A program made the translations under genes and the position numbers. Shown here piece by piece: positions 1-38,981 of a stretch of DNA of 39,352 nt; positions within the stretch are counted from its first letter, which is position 1; every line of letters starts with the position of its first letter. Location: positions 1 to 39,352 of the IMG/VR virus record IMGVR_UViG_3300032235_000716; one strand, 5' to 3'. The notes under the pieces are model-generated. The model was not told the DNA's origin and searched no databases. It saw nothing but the letters and a program-made list of their open reading frames with translations. The DNA comes from a virus.

Positions 1-3000
1 CCTATAGAGGGTCCGTCATAATATTCTGTTTTTAATTCAAAAATAATAGTACTGGACCCAACAGAAACATTAACAATATTTCCAAAATCACCCTTGACTT
101 TATATGAAATTATTTTTTCCGATTTTAATGGAGTTGATTCAAAAATTATCGGAGGAGAATCTTCTTTTAAATAACCAAATCCAGGATTTGCTATATTGAC
201 AGAAGTTATCGAGTCACCAGAGACGTTTGCAGTTGCAGTTGCTCTATTATAAATTGGTTCAGCATAAATTATTGTTCCTGTAGATCCAACACCAACATAT
301 CGTCCTCCAGTTCCAAATGAATTTACAAAAATTAAATCGTTAATTTTATTTGATTGATTTGTTGACCTTTCCAACCAATATACAAGATCAAAAGAATAAT
401 ATAGTTTTGAATCGGAAGTCAAAATTACATAAAAATCTTCATAATATCTTATATTTACAATATCTTTATTGAGAGATGGATTTGTTGATATTAGATTCCA
501 ATTTAAATTAGAATCGGATACTATGATAGTTCCACCATCACCGACAATGACAAATTTGGTATTGTCCCAAATAACTTTATTTAAGTTATTTCCTGTTGGT
601 GATGGAGATAAAACCCAATTTTCACCATCAGTTGATATTACTATTGAACCATTCTTTCCAACAGCAACAAAACGACTTTCCGTTATTGAAGATAGTCCAA
701 CTTTTTTAATATCATTATTAGCAACACTTAAGAGATCATAGAAAGATCTTGATCGTTGTTCTATAAATTCAGTTGACTCTACTCCAGTTGACAGGAAGGC
801 AGCAGCACTATTTCCAACAGCAACTACTTTATTTTGTACGGGAGAATAAATTAAATCATTAAAGGTATTGGTATATTCACTAGGTACTTTAATTTTATCA
901 CCAACAACAATTGATGCTGTATTAGAAACAAATTTGGATAATGTATACTCAGAAAAATTGGATGCCGATGAACCGTTTGAGTTGAATGAAATAATTTTTG
1001 AATTTTGACCAGCAGCAATATACTTATCCGTAGTTATTGAAACTACAGAATTAAAAGAAATAGTTGAAGCATAACCAATATTTGAAAATTCCCAATCTAT
1101 TCCATTTGAACTATATGCTACTAAACCACTTTGTCCAACAGAAATTAAATTACTTCCCATTGCAACAGAATTTAAACCATATATTGTAGATAAACCAACA
1201 GACTGCCAATTGTAAATAGGATCTTTTTTCTTTATGAAAAGTGAAGATATAGAAACATTCAAATTATTCACTCCTTGATAACCAAGTCCACCATATTCAA
1301 CGTTTATTTGAGAAATAGTAGACGAACTAGAAACTATAGCAGTTCCAATTGCTGGGGTTATATTTTTATTTTCAACTATAATAATATCACTTAACTCTTC
1401 TTTAATTTTATCAACTGCACTAAACATCGGAAAAGCATTGTCAACATATACAAAAGAATCAAGTTCTGATAAATTTCGTATTAGTTGGCAAGAGGGAACA
1501 ACTCTTGATTTTAAATCTGGTCTAGACTTAGATTGTAATGACCCATTAATTATTCTATCTTGAGTTTGTTTAATCCAACTCAAAGGTCTATATTTTGTAA
1601 TATCAGTGTTTATGCCAATATCATTATAGGTGAAAGTATCAAGTGAATCGGTAGAAATAATTGTTTTTACAATTCTTTCAAATTGTGACCTATCTGTTCC
1701 ATCGAGAATATTTTCCTCAATAATTACGGTATCCCCAGATTTTATTGTTTTTGGTGGGTCGATTTGCTCTACGTCTAAATCGGAACCTTTATAGAATAAA
1801 ATAGTACACTTGCTTCCCTTTAATGGTGGTTCTTTGAATGTAATCCTTGAACCAGAAAAAGTATAAGAACTTACTGGTTGCTGTAAAATATCATTTATAT
1901 AAACAAAAAGATTGTTTTCTATATTTAATTTACTTGTAGGAGAAACTTTTAAACTAATTGCTTCTCTAATTCCATTTTCAGTAACAGTTAATGTGAATCT
2001 TTTTTTATTATTGTTAAAAAACTGACTTACATCATCAAATTGTAAAAATTGACCTGGATAAAAACCACTAAATTTATCTGTAAACACTTCTTCAACATAA
2101 ATTCTAAATTCACTAAATGCTATTCCAACATTTGGATTTGTAGTTATACCAACGACCGATAAAACATCTCCAACTTTATAACCAAATCCAGATTCCTCCA
2201 ATTCAAATCCAATTATACTTGACCCAGATCCCACAACTACTGAAACTTTTGCTCCTTCACCATCACCAGTTGTTCCACTAATGTAAGTTAATGGCAGATC
2301 ACTATAACTAGATGGCAAATCTACCAAGACATTTGGAGGTGGATTTGATGTATAACCAGATCCAGAATTGACAATTGATAGTGATGTTACTGTTCCACCA
2401 GCACCAATCGACGATGAAAATGATGCACCTATTCCTTGGGAAGAATTTAATGATATTACTGGAGATCCTCTGTACCCAGAACCACGTCCTGTTAAAGTGA
2501 TACTTGATATTGTTCCTGATGAAGAAACCGTAACAGTTGCAGCAGCACCAACTAAAGGTTGATAACCAAATCCACTATTAATTCCCACTCTAACTATTCT
2601 ACCTGCATTTGGGATGCCACTAATAAATTTAAAAGTATTTTGATTGGCAGTATCAATTATATAATCAGTACCAGAAACTTGAGGAATATTATTAATTAAA
2701 ATTATAGGATTATTGTTAATGTCACCAGAAGCATTTATGCTAACTGAACTATTCGTATTTGTATACAGACCAACAACATTTTCTTTATTTGATTTTAAAA
2801 TGTAGTTCAATCTAGTAATATTAAACGATGTAGTTGCTATTCCAGAAGTTACATTATGATTGGGTGTAATTTCAATAAATCCAGAACCAATAGATTGAAC
2901 TTTAGTACTGGGTAAAATAAATCTATCTTCAAATGTAGTTTGTGAAATTACATCACCAAGTGAAATGCCAAGGGTATTAATACCAGATATTATTTTTCTA

Positions 3001-6000
3001 TTAGATGCGCCAAGAGTTCCTGTGAAAGTTCCAACAAAAACATCAGAACCTGTAAAATCTTTAGATATGTCATCTAATATAATATTTTTATCATTTGGCA
3101 ATCCTGGGTCAAACCTTCTACTAAAAACTCTTCCCTGGAATGATGAGTTGACTTGAATACCTTCTGGTCCTATATCACCATATGGTGCTGTTGCAAAATA
3201 AATTGTGTCTTTTATGATGTTAAAGTTTCCTCTACATAAAGTAATGGCAGAGTTTGATTCGTGTGATTCCTCAGATGTCCCCAAAAATCCTCTTACAACC
3301 TCAACTCTATTGGTAGATCCAATTCCTATATTTTTTATTCCAAAAAATTCTTGATTTATTTTAAAAATATCTTGAGATGTTATTGATGTTATTCCTGAAC
3401 TTAAATATATCGAGTCAGTTCCAATGGCAACTGATGATGCTAAACTTACATTAATATCTCTTATATAAATGGGACTTTGTATTATATTATCCAATACAAT
3501 TAAAGTACTTGCATTAGAATTATTAAATTCAAATGAATGAGTTCCAATTCCAAGTGTGATGAGATCCAATTCAGTTTCATTTTGTAGTCCAGAAACTTTA
3601 AATAAATTTTCATTACTCTGATTAATGTATAATGATGATGGCAATTTATTTGTGCCTAAACCAATTGGAGATATTGAAATATCATCATTACCATTGAGAC
3701 CACCAACATCTGATCCTAAAATTGTAATTTTGTCCGTTAAGGCATAACCAACACCACCATCAACAATTTCAATTGTGCTAATATCACCAAAAGAATTTCT
3801 GTAAACATTAAATTTAGCATCAGTACCGGTCCCAGAATTGATGCCTTCAATATCCAAATATGAATTATTTGCTGCACTAATAATTCTTGAACTTGATACT
3901 TTAGAAACTGTAAATGATAAATCATTTACTGAATCGGAACCACCAAAATAAGTTCCCGATAAAGATACTGTATCACCTACTTTATATCCTTTTCCACCAC
4001 TATTTAAAATTATAGATGTTGAAATTGGTTGTCCTGTGGACGAGTCATAAACAATAAATGCACTAAACTTTGCATCAGATCCAATACCAGTTGTTGATTT
4101 TTGAGGATAACCATTTGGATACCCATAATATGAATTTTGGTAACCAGAAAAATTTGGAACTATTGATGCAGAAGTTCCAACAATTGAAGTAGTAATTGCA
4201 ACATTATAACCATTTTCATATAATGCACTTCCAATACCACCGGAAATTTTAGTTATTATTGAAGAATTGTTTGAAGATACGGAAAGATAACTAGTATTCC
4301 CAAAACTTACAATTCTAATTACAGAATCTTCAACTGCTGATGTTGTTTTAATTCCAATAGATGAACCATATGGTGAATAATAAGTTACTTTTTGTCCAAC
4401 TTGAAAATTATTATTTCTAATATTAAATGAATTTTGGGAAAGATCCACAATATTAGAATCACTGGAATCAAATTCTCTGTAGAATAAAGGTATTCCATTT
4501 TCTTTGAGTTTAAAACTAGAAATACCAATTATTTGACTAGAACCTATATTTCTAGTTATTTTTACTGTTGTCTCATTTAATATTTCAGTTAAACTATCTC
4601 CTTGAAGTAAAGTGTGTGGTATATTTAATGTTATTGAATTTATTCCAACAGAAGTTATAAGAGTTAAGTCTGGTATGATATAAGATGAAAATCCAACAAA
4701 ATCTCCAACCTGAAGATTTGATGTTGAAATTCCTAGTGTTTTTTTCCTATAAGAACTAAATGTTGCTGTTCTTATTCCAACAACTTCATAATTCGATGAC
4801 CCATTAAACTGATCACTTATATCATCAATGCTAATAACTTTGTTTGTTTTATTTAAAATATAAGGTTTCAATGGAACTCCAAGTATTGGTCCAGTTTGAC
4901 CAACACCTGCAACATTGGCACTTTCAGCACCAATTTCAATTCTCTCAATTGATCCATCTTCAAATTGACTTTCTGGGTCTTCATTGACTATAGTAAAATT
5001 ATTTCTTTTGTAGATTGAAGAACTGCTATCGATATTCACAATAAATGATGAATTGGAATCAATAGCATTCATACTCATATTTGTTGTTGCAGAACTAATT
5101 ATGTTGAGGTCAGAAAATTCTTTAAATCCTGCTGGATGTATTATAGATTTTACTGGTTCTTTCCAAGTGTTATAGGGAAGTTTACTTACTATAGAGTATG
5201 AGAATTTCTGATAATAATCATTATCAGAAATTCTTTGTTGATAGTCATTAAGATATCCAGATCTATCAAATGATTCAACTAATTTGTCAACAGAAACACC
5301 ATAATTTGCTTGAATATTGAAACTATTAACTATTTGAACTATTCCATTCAGTTTGGATCTTTCACCATAAAGTTTATCTCCAATATTTAATGTTCCCTTG
5401 GAATTCGTTATAATTATTTGATTTGTTTTTCCATTCCAACCATCCTTTACGACTTCTCCGGAAAAAGTATTCGTATTGGATTCATTAAATCCTAAAACTT
5501 TCTCACCAGAAAAATAATTTAAGTCATCGGATAATTTCATATCAAACTTTGGCATAACTTTTTTATTAGTTACATACCCATATCCAAAATCATTATTATA
5601 ATTTCCAAGATCAGAAGAATAATCAGACATATCATAAGTAACTGTATAATTTTCTGTGCTTATTCCAGTTACTTTAAAAAATTTATAATTATAATCTGAA
5701 GAATTATAATTATCTTTAGGTACAATATTTCCAGATTTATCAGTATCTGTTAGAGAAATCCTACAATTTTCAATAAAAATTTCATCTCCAACTGCAAATG
5801 GAAAATCAATTTCCAATCCACCGTATGAATTTGCAATTAATGGATAAATTTGATTGTCCGAGTTCACTAATTCTAAAGTTACAAAATTTCCAGAAACAGT
5901 AATGGTTTCAATATCATACCCATTTGAATTTTTTGTAGAAACAATATCCAATGGTGAAGTTAAATTATTTGTATTCTTTAAAATATCAACCTTAGAAATA

Positions 6001-9000
6001 GATCCTCCTTGTAGTTCACAAGATATCTCAATATCATCATTTCCAACTACTTTTAAATATGGAATTGAATTATATCCTCTGCCACCAGTGATAATGCCAA
6101 CATAATCTATTCTAGAAATTCCATTTATTGTTGCTACTGTTGGAACACTCAAATATGGTCTTAATGTAATATCAGTTGGATAGTCATACCCATCCTTTAT
6201 TCTAACAAATGAATCTATTTTTCCAATATTTTCGGATACTGGTTTAACTGAAGCACCATTTCCATTTTCAGATTGAATACTTAAAAGACTAGGTAATGTC
6301 TTATACCCTCTTCCTTTGAAATTTATTTTTACTTTTTCTATTGGTCCATTAACATTTCTAGAATTGGTAGAATATGATATGGAACTTATTCCAGAGTTTA
6401 TAGAATAATCAATGTATTCTGGTTTATTTTTTAAATTTATTTTAAATTCACTACTTCCAATTGAAACGACTTGATACTGATCATTTAAACTAGTAGGAAT
6501 TATAATTATTTTATTTCTTCCCAATACATCCAAATCTGAAGAAATCTCAAATTTTACGTCCTCTAATGGAGAATTTGGAATTAAATTATAATATAATTCT
6601 TTTTCGGAAGTTAAATTATCTGTATTAATTGACAAGAAAGAATTTGAAGATCCTGGTGTTATAGCACTTTTAACATATTTGAAAGATTCTAATTCATCAA
6701 TAAAATTAATATCTTTATAAATTTTTAAATCCATTCCAGATAATGAACTATCTGATAGGTCAAATTTTATTGATGACCCTTTAGTTATCTTCAATGGTGG
6801 ATTTATAAGACCTATTTTATGAGTTCCAGATGAAGAATTTATTAATACAATATTTTTTCCAACAATTGCATCATTGTATGATTTTGCAAATTTAATCTTA
6901 TCTGATGTTGTTTTTATTACGAAGTAAGTATTACGATCAATCAAATCTGAAATATTCGCATTTCCATTTGAATAATAAACTATTTTTTGTCCATTTTCAA
7001 ATGAATTATTTCCAATTTGAATTTCAGATTTCGATAGATCTACTAATGAAGAATCGAATGATATTGTATTGGTAACTATTTTTCTTAAATTTAAATCATA
7101 AGAAACGGAATAATTTTCAATATAATTGGGTTTTAAGTTAAATCTTACAAAATCATCATTGGATAATTGATGATTTTCTGCTGTAGTAACATTGAGATAA
7201 AAATTTTCAACGGCAGAAGATAAAACTTCATAGTTGGTTTTAAATGAATCAGAATTGCCTGTAGTTCCAGTTTTATAAAAATATAAAGATTTAAATGTTG
7301 ATCCAATTCCAACACTGGAAGTAAAACCAACAGTAGATATTCCAAGAAAATTTTCCCCATAATTTACAGCATAAACTTTTTGATTGTCTGATAATCTAAA
7401 AGACGATGCTTCATTGGAATCTGAAACAAGAAGACCATTTCCATCTATTCCAATATTATAAATTAATTCTTGTCCAGTATAAAAGTTATGACTTTCAATG
7501 AAAATGGATTTTGGGGGAATATTTAAGTTTCCTCCATTATAGTCAATATAATTAGAAGCAGTTGTTCCAAATCCAATTAAACTTTTTGGGGTAAAAAATA
7601 TTTTTTTATTTTCTTTTATTCCAAAATTGACCCCATTCTGAGTAAAAGTAAATTTATTTGGCAATAAAACTACGGAAGATATTCCTACACTATGAGTTGA
7701 ATAATTAGATAATCTGTCAACAGTGAATTTTGATTCAGCACCAGAAATATTAGTAATCATCATGACTTCATTATCTATCTTAATGAAGTCACCAATATCA
7801 AATCCTTTAATATCATCTACAAATACACTTGTAGTAAAACCAGTTGAAATACTAGGTACGGACTGTGCTAAACCTACAGTTTTTTGGTTTACAAATATTT
7901 TTTTACTTCCTTCCAGATCTTTATATTTTAAAGAATCGAATTGATCAATGTAAATTGTATCACCAGTATATAAATTGTGTGGGGAACTAGTTATACCAAT
8001 AACAGTGTTTATTTTGTCAATAAATTCAACATTAGTAAAAGTCGAAACACCAACTTGTACAGATAATAATCCTTTACCTTTTACTTCAGAAACTTTTGCG
8101 GATAATCCAGATCCATCAGTACCAGAATTATCGAAAAATAAATTATCTCCTACTTTATAACTATTTCCAGGGGATAGTATTTTCAGATCGTCAACATATG
8201 ACGAAAGAACTTGACTGACAGAAAACTCTTGTTGATATTTTTTATCAATAGAATTCAAGAATAAAGATTTAGTTTTACTTGAATTTATATAATAATTTGA
8301 AACATTTCTAATTATATTTAAAGAACTTATATCAAATTCTTGATTGAATTCTAAGTCATAATTTTTTTCTATGAGATTGTCCTTTGATTGGAATCCAATG
8401 ACATAGGGGTATAGTGAATTTGAAAGTGAATCTCCATCAATGGTATAAAAATATGCATAAGTTCCCTCTGGGAAATCTGGAGTAACACAAAATCTTCCAT
8501 TATGTTCATCCAAATCACCATATGAACGATCAAAAGTATAATCTTGTATGAAAAATCCTCCAGGATAATTTGGTCTTATTGATGTATTTGAATCAACATT
8601 TAAAAAATAACTTGTTTCTACTTTTCTTACTTCGGAATCTACCTGACCATATGGACCATAAATTGGATTTCCATCATATGCCCACCCAATAATTGGGGAA
8701 TGGACAACAGAATCAATTCTTTCTTGAGAACTATTAAAGTTAATATTATCGTTTAATTCTTTTCTTAATTCTTTTGGTGGATAAAAATTAACAAATTGTA
8801 AACCAAAATTATTATTTTTGCTCGGGACTATTATCCCCTCATCAGGATTTTGAGCATAACTTATCAAATCTTTATTTTTTTCTACTTGATTTATTTTCCA
8901 TTCAGTAACATTCGCAATAAATTTAACTCCATAACCTCTATCAATGACTGTTAATTTTGTTTTGTTGTTGTAATTTATTCCACTATTTAAAACCTTAACC

Positions 9001-12000
9001 TCAATTATCTTGCCATCTTCTACTACTGGGTATAAATCCGCAAAATTACCTTCACTGCTTATTACTATATCAACTCCTTTTGTATAACCTTGTCCCTGAT
9101 TTAAAATTTGAACATTGACAATTTTGCCATCAACTATTATTGGTTTTAGTAAAGCAATTGAAGATGGGACCTTGGCGAATGCATTTGGTCTTCTATGGAA
9201 ATTAATTATGTCTGAAGTTCCATATTTTTCTCCAGAATCAATTATAAAAACACTATCTGCAGAACCAATCACTACAGGATCTAATTCTGGTTGTGATTGT
9301 ATAGTGGAAGATATTCCTGACTGAACCTCTACCTTTATTTTAATTGGAGGATAAGAAAATGTTTGATATCCTGATCCCAAGGAAACAAAATTAACATAAG
9401 TCTTGTTAATATAATTTTCATATGATGCATCAACAAAATCTCTTGTCTTTATAGTATCAAAAGTATTAATGTATGATGAAAGATTATATCCAGTTTCTAC
9501 TTGAGCACCCCACATATAGAAACCAGAGGTTCCATCACCGGTAAATGAACCACCTGAAAATGATGTATTGTTTCTAATTTGAAGACCAATATTATCATAT
9601 AAATTTGATTTATATACTACTGAGCAACGATACCATCCATTGCCATAGTATTCTATTTTCGAATCTTTAAATACTACATTTGTTGTTGGATTAATAACTG
9701 TCCCTGTGTTTAAATCAAAAACAGGCGCTTCATTTGTTGCTTGAGAACCAGCACCAGAAAATTGAAAATATCTATAAGATCCATATTTCTTCACAAAAAC
9801 ACTTAATGTGAATACCTCGTTCAAGGTGAAAATATTACCTTGAACGTCTGCAGTCAAAGCACGAACTGAATCTGACCCGTTTGAAATTACTAGGTCAGCA
9901 GTTTTGGTGCCATCTGGAGAAATTTCGGCATTTGGTTGAATTGTACTTATTCCAAATCTTTGCCAACTTGTGCCAATATCTAAATTTTGACTATGTTTGA
10001 TTAAGTTTGTTGCTGATTCTTCGTAACCAGTTTCAGATAATTTAAATTTATTTTTATCTAATACTGTAACCGAATATAATGTAGTAGTTGATAGACCAGA
10101 AATTGAACTGCCACTATATGAATATTTTACTAAATCTTTATTTTTAAAGTTATGGTCCTTTGCAAAAATATAATCATCAAAAGTATTGACCCCATTGGTT
10201 TTACTGTCAGCAGATAAAACAGATTTTACTGATACTTTTTTATTTGAATAACCAAAACCAGAATTCTTTACATAAATTTTTGTTATCGTGTTTTTTGATT
10301 TTAATGTTTTTAAAAAATGAATTCCATTACTTATAGATCTAAATTGGATTTCGTTTTGCTTTTTGACACAATCATTTAAAGTTTTATATAACTTTACCTG
10401 TGTAGAATTTAAAATTTCAACGAAATAAGAGTCATCATTAGATAATTTTGGATAAACAAATACACCGGGTTCAACTTCTTCCTCATAGGAAATATTTTGA
10501 TTGCCATTTGAATTGTATAAAACTTCTTCACAATCATTAAAGTTGTGATCTTGCGTAAAAGTTATGACATTTGAAGCAGTGTTTACACCAAAACCATCAC
10601 CCCTAAATGAAGAATTAATTCTTGTTTTGACTAAATTTGATTCAAGAATAGCCCCAGAACCATTTCCCCCAACTAAAGAAATTTTTGGTTTTAATTCATA
10701 ACCAATTCCTGGTTTAATAATTTTTACTTCCTTTAAACTTCCAACTAAATTGAGATGCGCAGAGCATCCAATTCCAATCTCATCCTCAATCACTAATTGG
10801 GGATAATTTATAACATCGTAGTCTTTTCCTTTATCAGTTATTAAAATTGAATCTATTTTTCCGTAATATAAATTCTCATCATATAATGTTGGTGAATATA
10901 ATTCAACTCCATTTGCGAGCATTCCAATTGTTTTATTATTAGTACTTCTTTCTTTAGATTTTTCAAAGATGGAATTATTTTCTTTTAAATTGAACTTTTT
11001 AAATAATTTTTGATTTTTTAAAGATTTATTTTCATAGTCCAATTTTACAAAATATTCACCAGTAGATCCTGAGTTTAAGGTTACGAATTTTTTATTATAT
11101 AAATCACTTTTACTATAAGATAGATTTATTTTTTTACTATCAAAAGTATTGCCTATAGTATTGACAAAATATACTCCAGAAGATATTCCAGAAGAAGAAT
11201 TTGAAAAATAATAAATTTTTTCTCCAGTATAAAATTTGTGTAGAATATCTGTGTTTAAAATTGTAGTTTTCGATGCCCCTACATCTGTAGATACATTTAT
11301 TTTCCTGTCTTTTGCATAAATTTTATGGTCTGGAATACCAGATGAAGAGACATAAAAATTATTTCTATCATAATCAATATAAGTATTTTGCACAGAAGAA
11401 GTGGAAGACGTGATACCAGAAAAATAATCCTGATCTACTGATGCAAAAGAAATATCTTTTTTTAATTTGTTTTTTTGAGAAAGATCTACATCACTTTGTA
11501 TTTGTATTTTATTTGCATTCTTAAATGTTTCTAAGACTATAGCATTCTCAAAAACATCATTTACATCTTGATCATTTAAAAATAAAATAGTTTCTCCTCT
11601 ATAAAATTTTATATCATCATATAAATCAACTGTCCATACGTTATTATTTGAACCCGATGGTCCAGAAATAGACTTAACTTCTGTAATTATTGGGGTATTA
11701 TATTTCCAACAATAAAAACGAGGATCCCCACTCAGATCTTCACCAAAATATGATAGAGAAATTTTATCCTTAACTCTTAAATTTGAAGTTTTAGATAAAT
11801 CAAAACTATCAATAATGTTAATGACTCTAAATTCAACTTTAGTTCCATCTTCCAAAAATGCATAAGCAAAATTATCTTCTACAACTTCATCGTTAATATT
11901 AAAATTAAAGTCAATTCCAGAAACTTCAAAAAATTGTGTAAGTGTTTTTTGATTATATGTTATTTTTACTGGTTGTTGATACAATTTCGAAACAATAAAT

Positions 12001-12986
12001 GCAGATCCACTATTTTCAAATCCTACTGTGGAATCTACAATTAAATTAGTTTCTCCTTCAGAAACCTGTTTTATTATATTTGTTTTTTTTGTATTTTCAA
12101 ATGGAATTGTGATTGAATCTCTATCTAAAGATACTTCATACAAAAATTTATCATCTACAGGTCTAATTTCAACATTATAAATTGAAGCACTAGAAGATGT
12201 TCCTTGGTATAAAGTTTTTCCAATTAACTCAAGAGGATCACCACCAGAGATTTTTTCTAAAAGAATACTTTTGGTAACAATGTAGTTTCCACCAGAAGAT
12301 TTTAATGTATACTCTTGTGGTCTTATAATTTGGATATCTTCATTGAAAAGAATTTTGAAAAGAATTTTATATGAAGTATCAGTTCCTTTTGAAGAGTAGA
12401 AATCTCTTGCTCTTGATAAAATATTTTTTATATTTACATCATCAACAAATTTTCTATTTTCAAAACCTGGAAAAAATTGGTACTTAAATTTTTCAAATAA
12501 CTTATTGAAAAATAAAACACTTAAATTCTGAACAACTGCTCCATCTAAGTGAGATGCTGCTTCAGTAGTTGAAAAAGTTAAAGAATTAGTTTTTAACTCA
12601 TCTATACCACTAAATCCTCTAATGCAACCAGTAAAAGAATTTATTGTTTTGCCAGTATAAGAGATTATTTCATTATCAATTTTAATTAATCCATATTTTT
12701 CTGGAAATCCTATCGTATGATTTACAAAAATAATATCATTTGGTGCTAAAGTATTTTCAGTTAAACTGCAGGGAACAACATTAGAATAAAATGTTTCATT
12801 ATTAAAGTTTTCAATTGACTTATATTTTGTTAAATTATTAGCTAAGTCAACTATACCTGTTTGATACTCCTGTGAGATATAATACTGAGTTAAAAATTCT
12901 TTGAATAATGGTGACTCACTATTGAGAAACTCTGGAATTTGAGTTTCTACGAAGTTTTGGATTTTTACTCTTTTGATTTCTGTCAT
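1..12986 (-). CDS. Giant multidomain tail/adhesin structural protein, 3' end beyond the window (>=4,328 aa)
   Basis: One uninterrupted frame runs from an ATG at 12986 past the left edge, so the C-terminus is missing. The ATG lies one base after the gp6 stop. Visible parts: N-terminal wedge-like region; about residues 990-1172 a concanavalin/carbohydrate-binding-like module (NGWYRC and YMWGAQVE motifs, as in phage tail proteins); about 1425-1530 a YHYH domain (WAYDGNPIYGPYG, then GDLDEHNGRF and a PEGTYAYFYT variant of the YHYH core); about 3920-4242 a WD/BNR-like propeller (repeats such as FVAVGKNGSIVISTDGENW). In between are at least 15 G-x-G-Y modules (SGSGYTSNP, GGKGYKVGD, GGRGYNSIP). T4-like cyanophages are known to carry very large YHYH-containing structural genes after gp6. 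I infer a virion protein at the baseplate or tail-fibre level, probably touching the host surface. Domain edges are by eye. Confidence 0.9.
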   Translation of the reverse strand, partial: MTEIKRVKIQNFVETQIPEFLNSESPLFKEFLTQYYISQEYQTGIVDLANNLTKYKSIENFNNETFYSNVVPCSLTENTLAPNDIIFVNHTIGFPEKYGLIKIDNEIISYTGKTINSFTGCIRGFSGIDELKTNSLTFSTTEAASHLDGAVVQNLSVLFFNKLFEKFKYQFFPGFENRKFVDDVNIKNILSRARDFYSSKGTDTSYKILFKILFNEDIQIIRPQEYTLKSSGGNYIVTKSILLEKISGGDPLELIGKTLYQGTSSSASIYNVEIRPVDDKFLYEVSLDRDSITIPFENTKKTNIIKQVSEGETNLIVDSTVGFENSGSAFIVSKLYQQPVKITYNQKTLTQFFEVSGIDFNFNINDEVVEDNFAYAFLEDGTKVEFRVINIIDSFDLSKTSNLRVKDKISLSYFGEDLSGDPRFYCWKYNTPIITEVKSISGPSGSNNNVWTVDLYDDIKFYRGETILFLNDQDVNDVFENAIVLETFKNANKIQIQSDVDLSQKNKLKKDISFASVDQDYFSGITSSTSSVQNTYIDYDRNNFYVSSSGIPDHKIYAKDRKINVSTDVGASKTTILNTDILHKFYTGEKIYYFSNSSSGISSGVYFVNTIGNTFDSKKINLSYSKSDLYNKKFVTLNSGSTGEYFVKLDYENKSLKNQKLFKKFNLKENNSIFEKSKERSTNNKTIGMLANGVELYSPTLYDENLYYGKIDSILITDKGKDYDVINYPQLVIEDEIGIGCSAHLNLVGSLKEVKIIKPGIGYELKPKISLVGGNGSGAILESNLVKTRINSSFRGDGFGVNTASNVITFTQDHNFNDCEEVLYNSNGNQNISYEEEVEPGVFVYPKLSNDDSYFVEILNSTQVKLYKTLNDCVKKQNEIQFRSISNGIHFLKTLKSKNTITKIYVKNSGFGYSNKKVSVKSVLSADSKTNGVNTFDDYIFAKDHNFKNKDLVKYSYSGSSISGLSTTTLYSVTVLDKNKFKLSETGYEESATNLIKHSQNLDIGTSWQRFGISTIQPNAEISPDGTKTADLVISNGSDSVRALTADVQGNIFTLNEVFTLSVFVKKYGSYRYFQFSGAGSQATNEAPVFDLNTGTVINPTTNVVFKDSKIEYYGNGWYRCSVVYKSNLYDNIGLQIRNNTSFSGGSFTGDGTSGFYMWGAQVETGYNLSSYINTFDTIKTRDFVDASYENYINKTYVNFVSLGSGYQTFSYPPIKIKVEVQSGISSTIQSQPELDPVVIGSADSVFIIDSGEKYGTSDIINFHRRPNAFAKVPSSIALLKPIIVDGKIVNVQILNQGQGYTKGVDIVISSEGNFADLYPVVEDGKIIEVKVLNSGINYNNKTKLTVIDRGYGVKFIANVTEWKINQVEKNKDLISYAQNPDEGIIVPSKNNNFGLQFVNFYPPKELRKELNDNINFNSSQERIDSVVHSPIIGWAYDGNPIYGPYGQVDSEVRKVETSYFLNVDSNTSIRPNYPGGFFIQDYTFDRSYGDLDEHNGRFCVTPDFPEGTYAYFYTIDGDSLSNSLYPYVIGFQSKDNLIEKNYDLEFNQEFDISSLNIIRNVSNYYINSSKTKSLFLNSIDKKYQQEFSVSQVLSSYVDDLKILSPGNSYKVGDNLFFDNSGTDGSGLSAKVSEVKGKGLLSVQVGVSTFTNVEFIDKINTVIGITSSPHNLYTGDTIYIDQFDSLKYKDLEGSKKIFVNQKTVGLAQSVPSISTGFTTSVFVDDIKGFDIGDFIKIDNEVMMITNISGAESKFTVDRLSNYSTHSVGISSVVLLPNKFTFTQNGVNFGIKENKKIFFTPKSLIGFGTTASNYIDYNGGNLNIPPKSIFIESHNFYTGQELIYNIGIDGNGLLVSDSNEASSFRLSDNQKVYAVNYGENFLGISTVGFTSSVGIGSTFKSLYFYKTGTTGNSDSFKTNYEVLSSAVENFYLNVTTAENHQLSNDDFVRFNLKPNYIENYSVSYDLNLRKIVTNTISFDSSLVDLSKSEIQIGNNSFENGQKIVYYSNGNANISDLIDRNTYFVIKTTSDKIKFAKSYNDAIVGKNIVLINSSSGTHKIGLINPPLKITKGSSIKFDLSDSSLSGMDLKIYKDINFIDELESFKYVKSAITPGSSNSFLSINTDNLTSEKELYYNLIPNSPLEDVKFEISSDLDVLGRNKIIIIPTSLNDQYQVVSIGSSEFKINLKNKPEYIDYSINSGISSISYSTNSRNVNGPIEKVKINFKGRGYKTLPSLLSIQSENGNGASVKPVSENIGKIDSFVRIKDGYDYPTDITLRPYLSVPTVATINGISRIDYVGIITGGRGYNSIPYLKVVGNDDIEISCELQGGSISKVDILKNTNNLTSPLDIVSTKNSNGYDIETITVSGNFVTLELVNSDNQIYPLIANSYGGLEIDFPFAVGDEIFIENCRISLTDTDKSGNIVPKDNYNSSDYNYKFFKVTGISTENYTVTYDMSDYSSDLGNYNNDFGYGYVTNKKVMPKFDMKLSDDLNYFSGEKVLGFNESNTNTFSGEVVKDGWNGKTNQIIITNSKGTLNIGDKLYGERSKLNGIVQIVNSFNIQANYGVSVDKLVESFDRSGYLNDYQQRISDNDYYQKFSYSIVSKLPYNTWKEPVKSIIHPAGFKEFSDLNIISSATTNMSMNAIDSNSSFIVNIDSSSSIYKRNNFTIVNEDPESQFEDGSIERIEIGAESANVAGVGQTGPILGVPLKPYILNKTNKVISIDDISDQFNGSSNYEVVGIRTATFSSYRKKTLGISTSNLQVGDFVGFSSYIIPDLTLITSVGINSITLNIPHTLLQGDSLTEILNETTVKITRNIGSSQIIGISSFKLKENGIPLFYREFDSSDSNIVDLSQNSFNIRNNNFQVGQKVTYYSPYGSSIGIKTTSAVEDSVIRIVSFGNTSYLSVSSNNSSIITKISGGIGSALYENGYNVAITTSIVGTSASIVPNFSGYQNSYYGYPNGYPQKSTTGIGSDAKFSAFIVYDSSTGQPISTSIILNSGGKGYKVGDTVSLSGTYFGGSDSVNDLSFTVSKVSSSRIISAANNSYLDIEGINSGTGTDAKFNVYRNSFGDISTIEIVDGGVGYALTDKITILGSDVGGLNGNDDISISPIGLGTNKLPSSLYINQSNENLFKVSGLQNETELDLITLGIGTHSFEFNNSNASTLIVLDNIIQSPIYIRDINVSLASSVAIGTDSIYLSSGITSITSQDIFKINQEFFGIKNIGIGSTNRVEVVRGFLGTSEESHESNSAITLCRGNFNIIKDTIYFATAPYGDIGPEGIQVNSSFQGRVFSRRFDPGLPNDKNIILDDISKDFTGSDVFVGTFTGTLGASNRKIISGINTLGISLGDVISQTTFEDRFILPSTKVQSIGSGFIEITPNHNVTSGIATTSFNITRLNYILKSNKENVVGLYTNTNSSVSINASGDINNNPIILINNIPQVSGTDYIIDTANQNTFKFISGIPNAGRIVRVGINSGFGYQPLVGAAATVTVSSSGTISSITLTGRGSGYRGSPVISLNSSQGIGASFSSSIGAGGTVTSLSIVNSGSGYTSNPPPNVLVDLPSSYSDLPLTYISGTTGDGEGAKVSVVVGSGSSIIGFELEESGFGYKVGDVLSVVGITTNPNVGIAFSEFRIYVEEVFTDKFSGFYPGQFLQFDDVSQFFNNNKKRFTLTVTENGIREAISLKVSPTSKLNIENNLFVYINDILQQPVSSYTFSGSRITFKEPPLKGSKCTILFYKGSDLDVEQIDPPKTIKSGDTVIIEENILDGTDRSQFERIVKTIISTDSLDTFTYNDIGINTDITKYRPLSWIKQTQDRIINGSLQSKSRPDLKSRVVPSCQLIRNLSELDSFVYVDNAFPMFSAVDKIKEELSDIIIVENKNITPAIGTAIVSSSSTISQINVEYGGLGYQGVNNLNVSISSLFIKKKDPIYNWQSVGLSTIYGLNSVAMGSNLISVGQSGLVAYSSNGIDWEFSNIGYASTISFNSVVSITTDKYIAAGQNSKIISFNSNGSSASNFSEYTLSKFVSNTASIVVGDKIKVPSEYTNTFNDLIYSPVQNKVVAVGNSAAAFLSTGVESTEFIEQRSRSFYDLLSVANNDIKKVGLSSITESRFVAVGKNGSIVISTDGENWVLSPSPTGNNLNKVIWDNTKFVIVGDGGTIIVSDSNLNWNLISTNPSLNKDIVNIRYYEDFYVILTSDSKLYYSFDLVYWLERSTNQSNKINDLIFVNSFGTGGRYVGVGSTGTIIYAEPIYNRATATANVSGDSITSVNIANPGFGYLKEDSPPIIFESTPLKSEKIISYKVKGDFGNIVNVSVGSSTIIFELKTEYYDGPSI

Positions 12987-32690: not shown

Positions 32691-33182
32691 TCAGGTGAGA
32701 CTTTGAGAGTTCTCTGTGCCAGTTTTTGAAGTGTCCAGATTATCATATTCCCAGTGACAATTTGGACACAGTGCCATAAGATTTTCTCTTGAATTGATAA
32801 CACTTATAAGAGTTTCACCAGTAAATGTAGAGATTCCTTTTTTGTGTGCTATTTCTACGTGTTTATCATATCCGCATTTTTCACAAGAATTCATATTATA
32901 TTTTTTTGCTTCTGCCCTTGCTCTTGTTCTCACCAAAGCATATGCAGAAGACCTATGGTGCTTCTCATAAATTGCTTCAGATAAGGTCATATCACCCAAA
33001 GAACCACAACACCTTATACATCTTTTGCTTCTATAATCAATTTTTACTCCACATACCTCACAATCATTTGGAAAGTTTATTTTTTTCTTTTTGGGATGAT
33101 GAACATTTGTCCATTTTGCAGCACAACTCCTACTACAAAATTTTGGATTGTTATGTGATTTTCCACAAGTGATACATTCCAT
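32691..33182 (-). CDS. Zinc-finger HNH endonuclease next to tRNA-Arg
   Basis: The product is 163 aa from the ATG at 33182 (an open extension upstream only reads through the tRNA). Zinc ribbons CITC...CSRSC (3-20) and CEVC...CIRCC (41-59) are followed by a helical linker and an HNH-like core: CEKC (100-103), EIAHKKG with His113, ENLMALCPNCH (133-143). Such enzymes are mobile elements of T-even-type phages and often sit beside tRNA genes. Its transcription may share that of the tRNA. Confidence 0.82.
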   Translation of the reverse strand: MECITCGKSHNNPKFCSRSCAAKWTNVHHPKKKKINFPNDCEVCGVKIDYRSKRCIRCCGSLGDMTLSEAIYEKHHRSSAYALVRTRARAEAKKYNMNSCEKCGYDKHVEIAHKKGISTFTGETLISVINSRENLMALCPNCHWEYDNLDTSKTGTENSQSLT

Positions 33183-33235
33183 ATTGTGAATGGATATTAC
33201 ATTATTATTTATATTTTTAGTTGTTTTATTCAAAA

Positions 33236-33308
33236 CACCCCGTGTAGGATTCGCACCCACGACCGATTCTTTAGAAGAGAATTGCTCTGTCTCCTGAGCT
33301 AACGGGGC
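33236..33308 (-). tRNA. tRNA-Arg (anticodon UCU)
   Basis: 73 nt. Acceptor GCCCCGT/ACGGGGT with G1-U72 wobble, standard D arm, anticodon loop with TCT, T loop in GGGTGCGAATCCTA, no encoded CCA. It would decode AGA, a codon frequent in the AT-rich structural genes. It lies 54 bases upstream of the HNH gene. Confidence 0.9.
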
Positions 33309-33393
33309 AAGAGACCCTCTGGTTTGTGCATTGTTAAGAGGCATAGAGGGTGTGGGACTTACTTAAAGTTTGGACCTTTAATGCCCGTAGAAA

Positions 33394-37941: not shown

Positions 37942-38000
37942 GCACGACTTTGGATGGATTGGGCATTGTGGTGGACGGTTTTTAGAGTGGCACAAAGCGT

Positions 38001-38025
38001 AAAAATAGAGGGCATTGCACCCCCT
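38001..38025 (-). terminator. Intrinsic terminator of the tmRNA
   Basis: AGGGGG-TGCAATG-CCCTCT stem-loop (38007-38025) followed on the minus strand by ATTTTT. One of the few hairpins here with a proper U tract. Confidence 0.75.
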
Positions 38026-38265
38026 TAGTAAGTTTTGGATAAGAAGGAAACTTATAACCCCCCTTCACTCATTTAAGGTCAAACAGCAACAGGTGCTGAG
38101 TGACGAGTGAACTTAACGATTTTATTCGCTGCGTTTGTTTGTTTGTCCCGTCAACAGATAAGACCTTTATGCCCCGTCGAAACCTGTGTATCCCCGTGAA
38201 GTGGAGATAAGGGGAATCGAACCCCTGTCCGAAACATCAGACTTCTCATCCTCTTGAACACTTTA
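38007..38265 (-). ncRNA. ssrA: Circularly permuted (two-piece) tmRNA with tag ANKIVKFTRHSAPVAV
   Basis: In transcription order: acceptor piece (about 38265-38202) with GATGAGA (P2 strand), T arm AGGGG-TTCGATT-CCCCT, acceptor strand TATCTCC and discriminator A; a 6-base spacer CTTCAC (38201-38196); coding piece starting GGGGATACACAGGTTTCGAC (38195). GGGGATA pairs with TATCTCC with the G3-U70 wobble that AlaRS reads; GATGAGA pairs with TCTTATC (7 bp, P2). The reading frame from GCG at 38129 to TGA at 38079 gives the tag; a GCA codon directly before could also be the resume codon. Downstream TAAGTTT/AAACTTA pairing indicates a pseudoknot. Marine picocyanobacterial tmRNAs are permuted and their tags are similar but end in AA; here the end is AV. 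The 5' limit of the acceptor piece is approximate. Confidence 0.88.
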
Positions 38266-38296
38266 TATAGTATCAGATTTTTTAGTTTTTGTAAAG

Positions 38297-38369
38297 TGGA
38301 GAATAGGAGACTCGAACTCCTGACCTCCTGAATGCAAATCAGGCGCACTACCAACTGTGCTAATTCCCC
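38297..38369 (-). tRNA. tRNA-Ala (anticodon UGC)
   Basis: 73 nt. Acceptor GGGGAAT/ATTCTCC with the G3-U70 alanine identity pair, anticodon arm CCTGA-TTTGCAT-TCAGG, T arm AGGAG-TTCGAGT-CTCCT, no encoded CCA. It lies about 30 bases upstream of the tmRNA on the same strand and is probably co-transcribed with it. Confidence 0.93.
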
Positions 38370-38397: not shown

Positions 38398-38480
38398 TGC
38401 TCCAGAGAAGATTTGAACTTCCACGCTTTTTAAGGCGGCGGATTCTAAGTCCGCTGTGTCTACCGTTCCACCACTGGAGC
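38398..38480 (-). tRNA. tRNA-Leu (anticodon UAG)
   Basis: 83 nt, type II with a long variable arm. Acceptor GCTCCAG/CTGGAGC, anticodon arm GCGGA-CTTAGAA-TCCGC, T loop TTCAAAT. Its 5' end directly abuts the stop codon of the HNH gene at 38481. Confidence 0.92.
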
Positions 38481-38924
38481 TTATCGTTTTTTATTTGAGA
38501 ACGTATCTGTTTGTGTATGACAATTAGGACACTTCAATCTCAAATTTTCTGAACGATTATCGTATCGATCACCGTTAATGTGATCGACTTGTAACCTCAA
38601 AGGTTTACCATTCCAAGTAGAAGAAATACCACATTCAGAACAAGTATTACCTCGTTCTTCTACTAACAATCTGTATAAGATATCTCTTTTACAAGTTTCT
38701 TTAGCAGAATTGTAGTATTCGGTAAGAGAATTCCATTTATTTTGACCACCAAAACTACTAAGATGTTTAGTATTGTTTGGTTTGTAGTCAGGAATCCACT
38801 TTTTCCATCTAGATCTTAGTGTATCTATCTTACAATTTAACTCAACACATAATTGAGTTGGAGATACTCCAGACAAAAGAGAGTTTACTATGTAATCTTT
38901 CTTATCGTCAAGATCTTTTCTCAT
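38481..38924 (-). CDS. HNH homing-type endonuclease abutting tRNA-Leu
   Basis: The product is 147 aa from ATG 38924 (a TTG start at 38966 would overlap the TATAAATA box). An N-terminal helix-turn-helix (VSPTQLCVELNCKIDTLRSR, about 20-39) precedes the HNH core: CSEC (95-98), LRLQVDHINGD with Asp114-His115, ENLRLKCPNCH (126-136). Such freestanding nucleases cut cognate DNA lacking the insert and spread by recombination. TATAAATA, the T4 late-promoter consensus, lies about 20-27 bases before the ATG. There is no Shine-Dalgarno. Confidence 0.85.
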   Translation of the reverse strand: MRKDLDDKKDYIVNSLLSGVSPTQLCVELNCKIDTLRSRWKKWIPDYKPNNTKHLSSFGGQNKWNSLTEYYNSAKETCKRDILYRLLVEERGNTCSECGISSTWNGKPLRLQVDHINGDRYDNRSENLRLKCPNCHTQTDTFSNKKR

Positions 38925-38941
38925 AATTGGTAGACGTGCTG

Positions 38942-38949
38942 TATTATTT
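38942..38949 (-). promoter_or_regulatory. T4-type late promoter core TATAAATA
   Basis: Minus-strand TGTATAAATAATAC upstream of the HNH gene matches the T4 late core TATAAATA exactly. Position to within a few bases. Confidence 0.5.
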
Positions 38950-38981
38950 ATACAAATTACTACCAATTTACCCCCAAATAA

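Follow-up and report, generated by a model that had tools for sequence, protein, structure and literature searches.

Two-piece, circularly permuted tmRNAs have been described in phages before. Passages of PMC9004378 report them in the OM43 phage Melnitz, in pelagiphages and in cyanophages, and place those of cyanophages with the cyanobacterial ones; the searched portion of its main text holds no discussion of tag sequences or tag ends. Like the gene presented here, the Melnitz gene is, by those passages, a complete permuted tmRNA carried by a lytic myovirus of aquatic origin; it differs in being of the alphaproteobacterial type and in being linked to a glutamine riboswitch (PMC9004378). Excerpts of PMC11915505 count 79 bacteriophage tmRNAs in a curated database and, where searched, do not discuss altered phage tag ends. 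They also present the TLD-only tmRNA of mycobacteriophage DS6A, which resembles our case as a phage tmRNA that may interfere with host tmRNA function, but which has no tag frame, whereas the frame described below is complete and conserved.

Homologous permuted tmRNAs, most of them near tRNA genes, are found in S-CAM1, S-CAM3, S-CRM01, S-SSM7, Sf-FS3 and the single-cell virus AG-345-P14, with tags that end in STVAA, LVAAL, LVTA or LATA. The records of these phages carry no tmRNA annotation; in the GenBank records of S-CAM3 and S-SSM7, hypothetical proteins are annotated over the permuted tmRNAs. The gene itself is thus of a known kind. In the openly accessible main texts that could be searched, we found no report of altered phage tmRNA tag ends, and the systematic change of the degron documented here appears to be unreported there.

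The window, that is, the whole stretch of DNA that was analysed, is an entire IMG/VR virus record of 39352 bases. Its best DNA matches are Synechococcus phages, and its genes include the T4-type baseplate wedge proteins gp6 and gp25, an S-adenosylmethionine decarboxylase, a helicase and several HNH proteins. It reads as a fragment of a T4-like cyanophage, probably of the family Kyanoviridae. Beside gp6 and gp25, an open frame of more than 4300 codons (3-12986, minus strand) runs off the edge of the window, and probably encodes a giant structural protein.

Near its other end, the window carries a genuine permuted, two-piece tmRNA gene of the cyanobacterial type. The first-pass annotation had claimed as much from the letters, and the programs agree: ARAGORN places a permuted tmRNA at c(37988-38291) and reads its tag as AANKIVKFTRHSAPVAV, followed by a stop; the Rfam model cyano_tmRNA (RF01851) matches over its full length at c(38276-38008), with 136.8 bits and an E-value of 2.8e-37 against a gathering score of 70; and tmRNA_permuted (RF04321) matches at c(38251-38079), with 85.2 bits against a gathering score of 47. 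These two scores put the match far beyond chance. The parts of the gene, and its two neighbours, are as follows, in the order in which the minus strand is read.

38398..38480, minus strand: tRNA-Leu(TAG), in the same RNA-gene cluster as the tmRNA
38296..38369, minus strand: tRNA-Ala(TGC), directly upstream of the tmRNA, in the same cluster
38008..38276, minus strand: whole permuted tmRNA gene, acceptor piece then mRNA-like piece (RF01851, RF04321, ARAGORN)
38231..38237, minus strand: 5' strand of the P2 helix, ATGTTTC, in the acceptor piece (7/7 pairs with 38169-38175; covaries among phages)
38210..38226, minus strand: T arm AGGGG TTCGATT CCCCT (5/5 pairs; compensatory changes at all 5 in relatives)
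38203..38209, minus strand: 3' strand of the acceptor stem, TATCTCC (7/7 pairs with 38189-38195, including G3-U70)
38202, minus strand: discriminator A, directly after the acceptor 3' strand
38196..38201, minus strand: intervening sequence CTTCAC, 6 nt, separating the two mature pieces
38189..38195, minus strand: 5' strand of the acceptor stem, GGGGATA, the first bases of the mRNA-like piece
38176..38184, minus strand: D-loop-like motif GGTTTCGAC (from the sequence)
38169..38175, minus strand: 3' strand of the P2 helix, GGGGCAT (from pairing)
38079..38132, minus strand: tag reading frame AANKIVKFTRHSAPVAV and its TGA stop (ARAGORN, codon table; core kept with synonymous codons in relatives)

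Short linkers complete this layout: GGAC lies between the P2 5' strand and the T arm, and CACA between the acceptor 5' strand and GGTTTCGAC. The sequence that follows the discriminator A does not encode CCA. The regions flanking the tag align to the covariance model; the models used contain no pseudoknots. Both the Ala resume codon and the stop of the tag frame are present, and the last tag codon is GTT, a Val in place of the Ala of the hosts.

All the parts named in the first-pass annotation (T arm, acceptor stem with G3-U70, 6-nt spacer, initial GGGG and 7-bp P2) are thus found on the minus strand, and its reading of the tag end as VAV agrees with ARAGORN. Its count of 16 codons holds if the resume codon is the second Ala, as in the hosts; ARAGORN reads 17. 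The very short spacer that it singled out is ordinary: a length of exactly 6 nt is found in 57 of the 114 host genes.

Compared with the picocyanobacterial two-piece tmRNA (RF01851), the gene of the window has the same gene order, T arm, G3-U70 acceptor stem and P2, the same tag core ANxIVxFxR and the same spacer length. The differences lie in the score, 137 bits against roughly 300-335 for most hosts, in the position of the phages on a separate side of the tree, and in the tag, which ends in V where those of the hosts end in A.

The nearest tmRNA relatives of the window are loci L124, L126, L192 and L242, which also have the tRNA-Ala and tRNA-Leu neighbours; the tRNA-Ala neighbour is common to L124, L126, L192, L222 and L242. 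Several of the nearest-relative loci lie in arrays of about 20 or more tRNAs. L192 (7050-8120) and L126 each have an additional, incomplete copy of the tmRNA some 650 nt upstream, limited to the acceptor piece and the beginning of the coding piece; it seems to be joined to the 3' portion of a tRNA-Ala, and looks like a recombination product. An open reading frame separates the two copies, and a peptide-deformylase-like one lies further upstream.

In the window, HNH-type endonuclease-like frames lie beside tRNA genes at 32691-33344 (minus strand, weak Pfam match only) and 38481-38966 (minus strand), which is consistent with mobile endonucleases in RNA-gene clusters. An abiF RNA (RF03085, 48.8 bits) adjoins a tRNA-Arg at 33314-33350, minus strand, and is present also in the records of L124 and L160. 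A search for an Abi_2 toxin gene found none in the window record. In C. difficile, the AbiF toxin is neutralised by abiF RNA (PMC12373285), and an abiF RNA has been described in cyanophage S-CREM1 (PMC9964418); a stand-alone phage abiF RNA could be a decoy antitoxin against host AbiF.

Seventeen cyanophage loci have a complete tRNA-Tyr or tRNA-Asn gene between the acceptor and coding pieces:

tRNA-Tyr inside the tmRNA gene: L132, L133, L145, L161, L170, L172, L178, L184, L195, L205, L208, L219, L221
tRNA-Asn inside the tmRNA gene: L167, L169, L179, L212

Since the inserted tRNAs are of two kinds, at least two insertions took place. A tRNA between the pieces fits processing by the enzymes that mature tRNAs, and supports the existence of two separate mature pieces. 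The 220-nt spacer of L228 contains no tRNA that we could find.

The comparison of tag ends carries the main result. Host tags of Prochlorococcus, Synechococcus and Cyanobium, collected from GTDB genomes with an exact T-arm pattern, end in Ala-Ala in 114 cases out of 114; a family-wide covariance-model search adds 53 further host loci, some overlapping the first sample, and 53 of 53 end in AA. The end of the window tag, flagged as non-canonical in the first-pass annotation, is indeed foreign to the sampled hosts, and altered ends recur across cyanophages: among 142 related cyano-type phage loci, only 41 keep AA, a proportion that is not a population estimate, two of the collection patterns being enriched for particular lineages. 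The others end in TA, TV, AV, LV and similar pairs, and the types TA, TV, AV, LV, SV, AL, PA, LA and VA are seen among phages only. A T-arm pattern that takes no account of the tag retrieves 28 phage loci, 12 of them with an end other than AA, against none of the 114 hosts found by a similar pattern. The pooled Fisher test of hosts against phages gives p = 5e-38, a figure that we do not take as the strength of the evidence because related sequences are not independent.

The window is not a one-off case: L124, L126, L192 and L242 have the same VAV end, and so do loci on separate branches, for example L025/L044/L060/L093 and L154. The other phage tmRNAs of the same collection, of the one-piece and alpha/beta two-piece types, mostly end in AA, with a few in VA, MA or NA; none of them is a credible V-ending tmRNA, the rare V rows looking like chance ARAGORN calls. 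The altered end is thus largely a feature of cyanophage tmRNAs. Tags of many marine phages are also longer at the front (e.g. AKTSDT-AANNIVAFSR) than the 16-residue host tag, and some contain long inserts, of up to 32 residues, before the tag end; loci with such tags include L001, L003, L005, L129 and L141.

The tree of these genes, built without the tag-end codons, separates phages from hosts by a single branch, whose support is 100/100; the position of the long-branched L034 and L036 is unsure. The phage tmRNA probably derives from the cyanobacterial two-piece tmRNA, and has followed a separate phage lineage since. On this tree, at least 13 to 14 switches between AA and non-AA ends are required, and at least 7 changes of the last residue, counts that are approximate since many inner branches are weak.

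The significance of the last two residues is known from other systems. For E. coli ClpXP, a terminal Ala-Ala with a free carboxylate is the most important element of the tag, and replacing either Ala raises KM (PMC7652416). In Synechocystis, an excerpt of PMC3446811, citing Huang 2010, reports AAV and ASV as weaker degradation tags than LVA. These engineered ssrA tags are man-made variants of the E. coli tag, altered in their last residues; the phage tags are natural variants of the cyanobacterial tag, and AAV and ASV end in Val like that of the window. AAV-type tags remain working degrons in E. coli, and the effect may therefore be modest. By analogy, the phage tag would be a weaker or differently read degron and, on the basis of the published ClpX and reporter-tag data, the altered tag is likely to change protein turnover.

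Partners encoded by the phage were also considered. Thirteen tmRNA-bearing records were searched for SmpB, and none has it; no ClpP was found in the tmRNA-bearing cyanophage records searched, five of which are GenBank isolates or single-cell viruses, the single ClpP match being in record G008/L045, whose tmRNA is of the one-piece type. A phage-encoded SmpB or ClpP partner is thus rejected for the cyanophage records searched, and the phage tmRNA must use the SmpB and the proteases of the host.

The best explanation, which we consider reasonably probable as a whole, is that cyanophages acquired a tmRNA that rescues ribosomes with host SmpB, and detuned its ClpX degron. We infer that the gene is expressed, and that host tRNA-processing enzymes cut the precursor into an acceptor piece and a coding piece, which base pairing in P2 and in the acceptor stem would join; the host would add CCA and, given G3-U70, alanine. 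Host SmpB would deliver the phage tmRNA to ribosomes blocked on broken mRNA, of which an infected cell should have plenty. Through trans-translation, the nascent chain would get a tag that has the cyanobacterial core ANxIVxFxR and lacks the C-terminal Ala-Ala gripped by ClpX. The phage would benefit by keeping ribosome recycling, with the destruction of rescued chains by ClpXP lowered, or redirected to another protease. What the data establish directly is the gene, its structure, the selection acting on it, the separation of phages from hosts, and a tag end that is consistently changed in its amino acids. Within this scheme, ribosome rescue by the phage tmRNA during infection is well supported as an inference; the 41 of 142 loci that keep AA count against a universal detuning.

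In a close variant, degradation would continue by another route, the altered end being suited to a different unfoldase, such as ClpC, or to a ClpX that infection has modified. The restricted set of residues at the last two positions speaks for it, the conserved N-terminal core could serve as a site for an adaptor or unfoldase, and E. coli ClpA depends less than ClpX on the final residue, which also counts for such a change of target. Against it stands the lack of ClpP in the tmRNA-bearing cyanophage records searched. We regard it as unlikely, while noting that sequence alone cannot separate it, whether through ClpC or another protease, from a plain weakening.

It could also be that the phage needs rescue only, and that the degron drifts, degradation being irrelevant in a short lytic infection. 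The ends are many, different and confined to phages, and A-to-V and A-to-T are single transitions, as drift would have it. However, the ends are limited to small or aliphatic residues: among 101 distinct phage sequences, 66 end in A, 34 in V and 1 in L, and none in a charged residue; the second-to-last is T, A, L, V, P or S; and Thr, common second to last, is never last. Moreover, the final Val is written GTT, GTC, GTA and GTG across phages, and the Leu that precedes it TTA, TTG, CTA and CTT; keeping these residues through several codons favours maintenance of the residue over decay. The remainder of the tag is strictly conserved as well: in the 101 distinct sequences, the core A-N-[NK]-[IV]-V-x-F-x-R is kept with two to four codons per fixed residue, and the stop is always intact (101/101), which argues that the tag frame is translated and under selection. 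The narrow residue set and the codon pattern thus speak against relaxed selection, which appears improbable.

The last tag codons are also the 3' strand of a hairpin, and its remodelling might have changed the amino acids as a side effect. The middle C of the last codon forms a pair with G in 23 of 27 AA-ending sequences; in V-ending ones, the middle U of that codon has a partner in 20 of 34, A in 13 and G in 7. That base is unpaired in the remaining 14 of 34, apparently including the window, where it falls in an internal loop, and Ala codons could equally keep the pairing, as they do in all hosts. Hairpin pairing could contribute to the change of the tag end; as its cause, we find it decidedly unlikely.

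The rest of the molecule argues for selection on it as a tmRNA. All 142 cyano-type phage loci have the discriminator A and a complete 7-bp acceptor stem with G3-U70, counting 3 rows mis-parsed by the script and read by eye from the sequences. Compensatory double changes affect 3/7 acceptor, 5/5 T stem and 6/7 P2 pairs in 57 distinct helix sets; none of 500 shuffles reaches the observed pairing, which is mildly biased in that the position of the acceptor 5' strand was chosen, within 2 nt, to give the most pairs. That the gene is a non-functional relic of a host gene acquired by chance, as the missing tmRNA annotation in every GenBank cyanophage record examined might suggest, is scarcely credible, being already contradicted by covarying helices and a conserved tag frame across a deeply diverged phage clade. 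The change of the tag end is not decay, to judge by the acceptor stem with G3-U70, the covarying helices, the core ANxIVxFxR and the retained final Val.

Returning to the acquired tmRNA with a detuned degron, a more specific proposal can be put forward tentatively: during infection, the degron-switched cyanophage tmRNA and the tmRNA of the host would compete for SmpB and for stalled ribosomes, and the phage tag would be poorly handled by host ClpXP, or read by another protease. Rescue would then be uncoupled from normal proteolysis, an infection strategy that selection may have maintained, and that may have been reached several times.

Most cyanophage copies depart from a degron that is invariant in the hosts, while conserving the tag core and the remainder of the RNA. 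This bears on why phages carry a tmRNA at all: the prediction is that they would want the rescue of ribosomes, and not the same destruction of proteins. The tag ends of cyanophages would amount to a naturally occurring set of degron variants that evolution has sifted.
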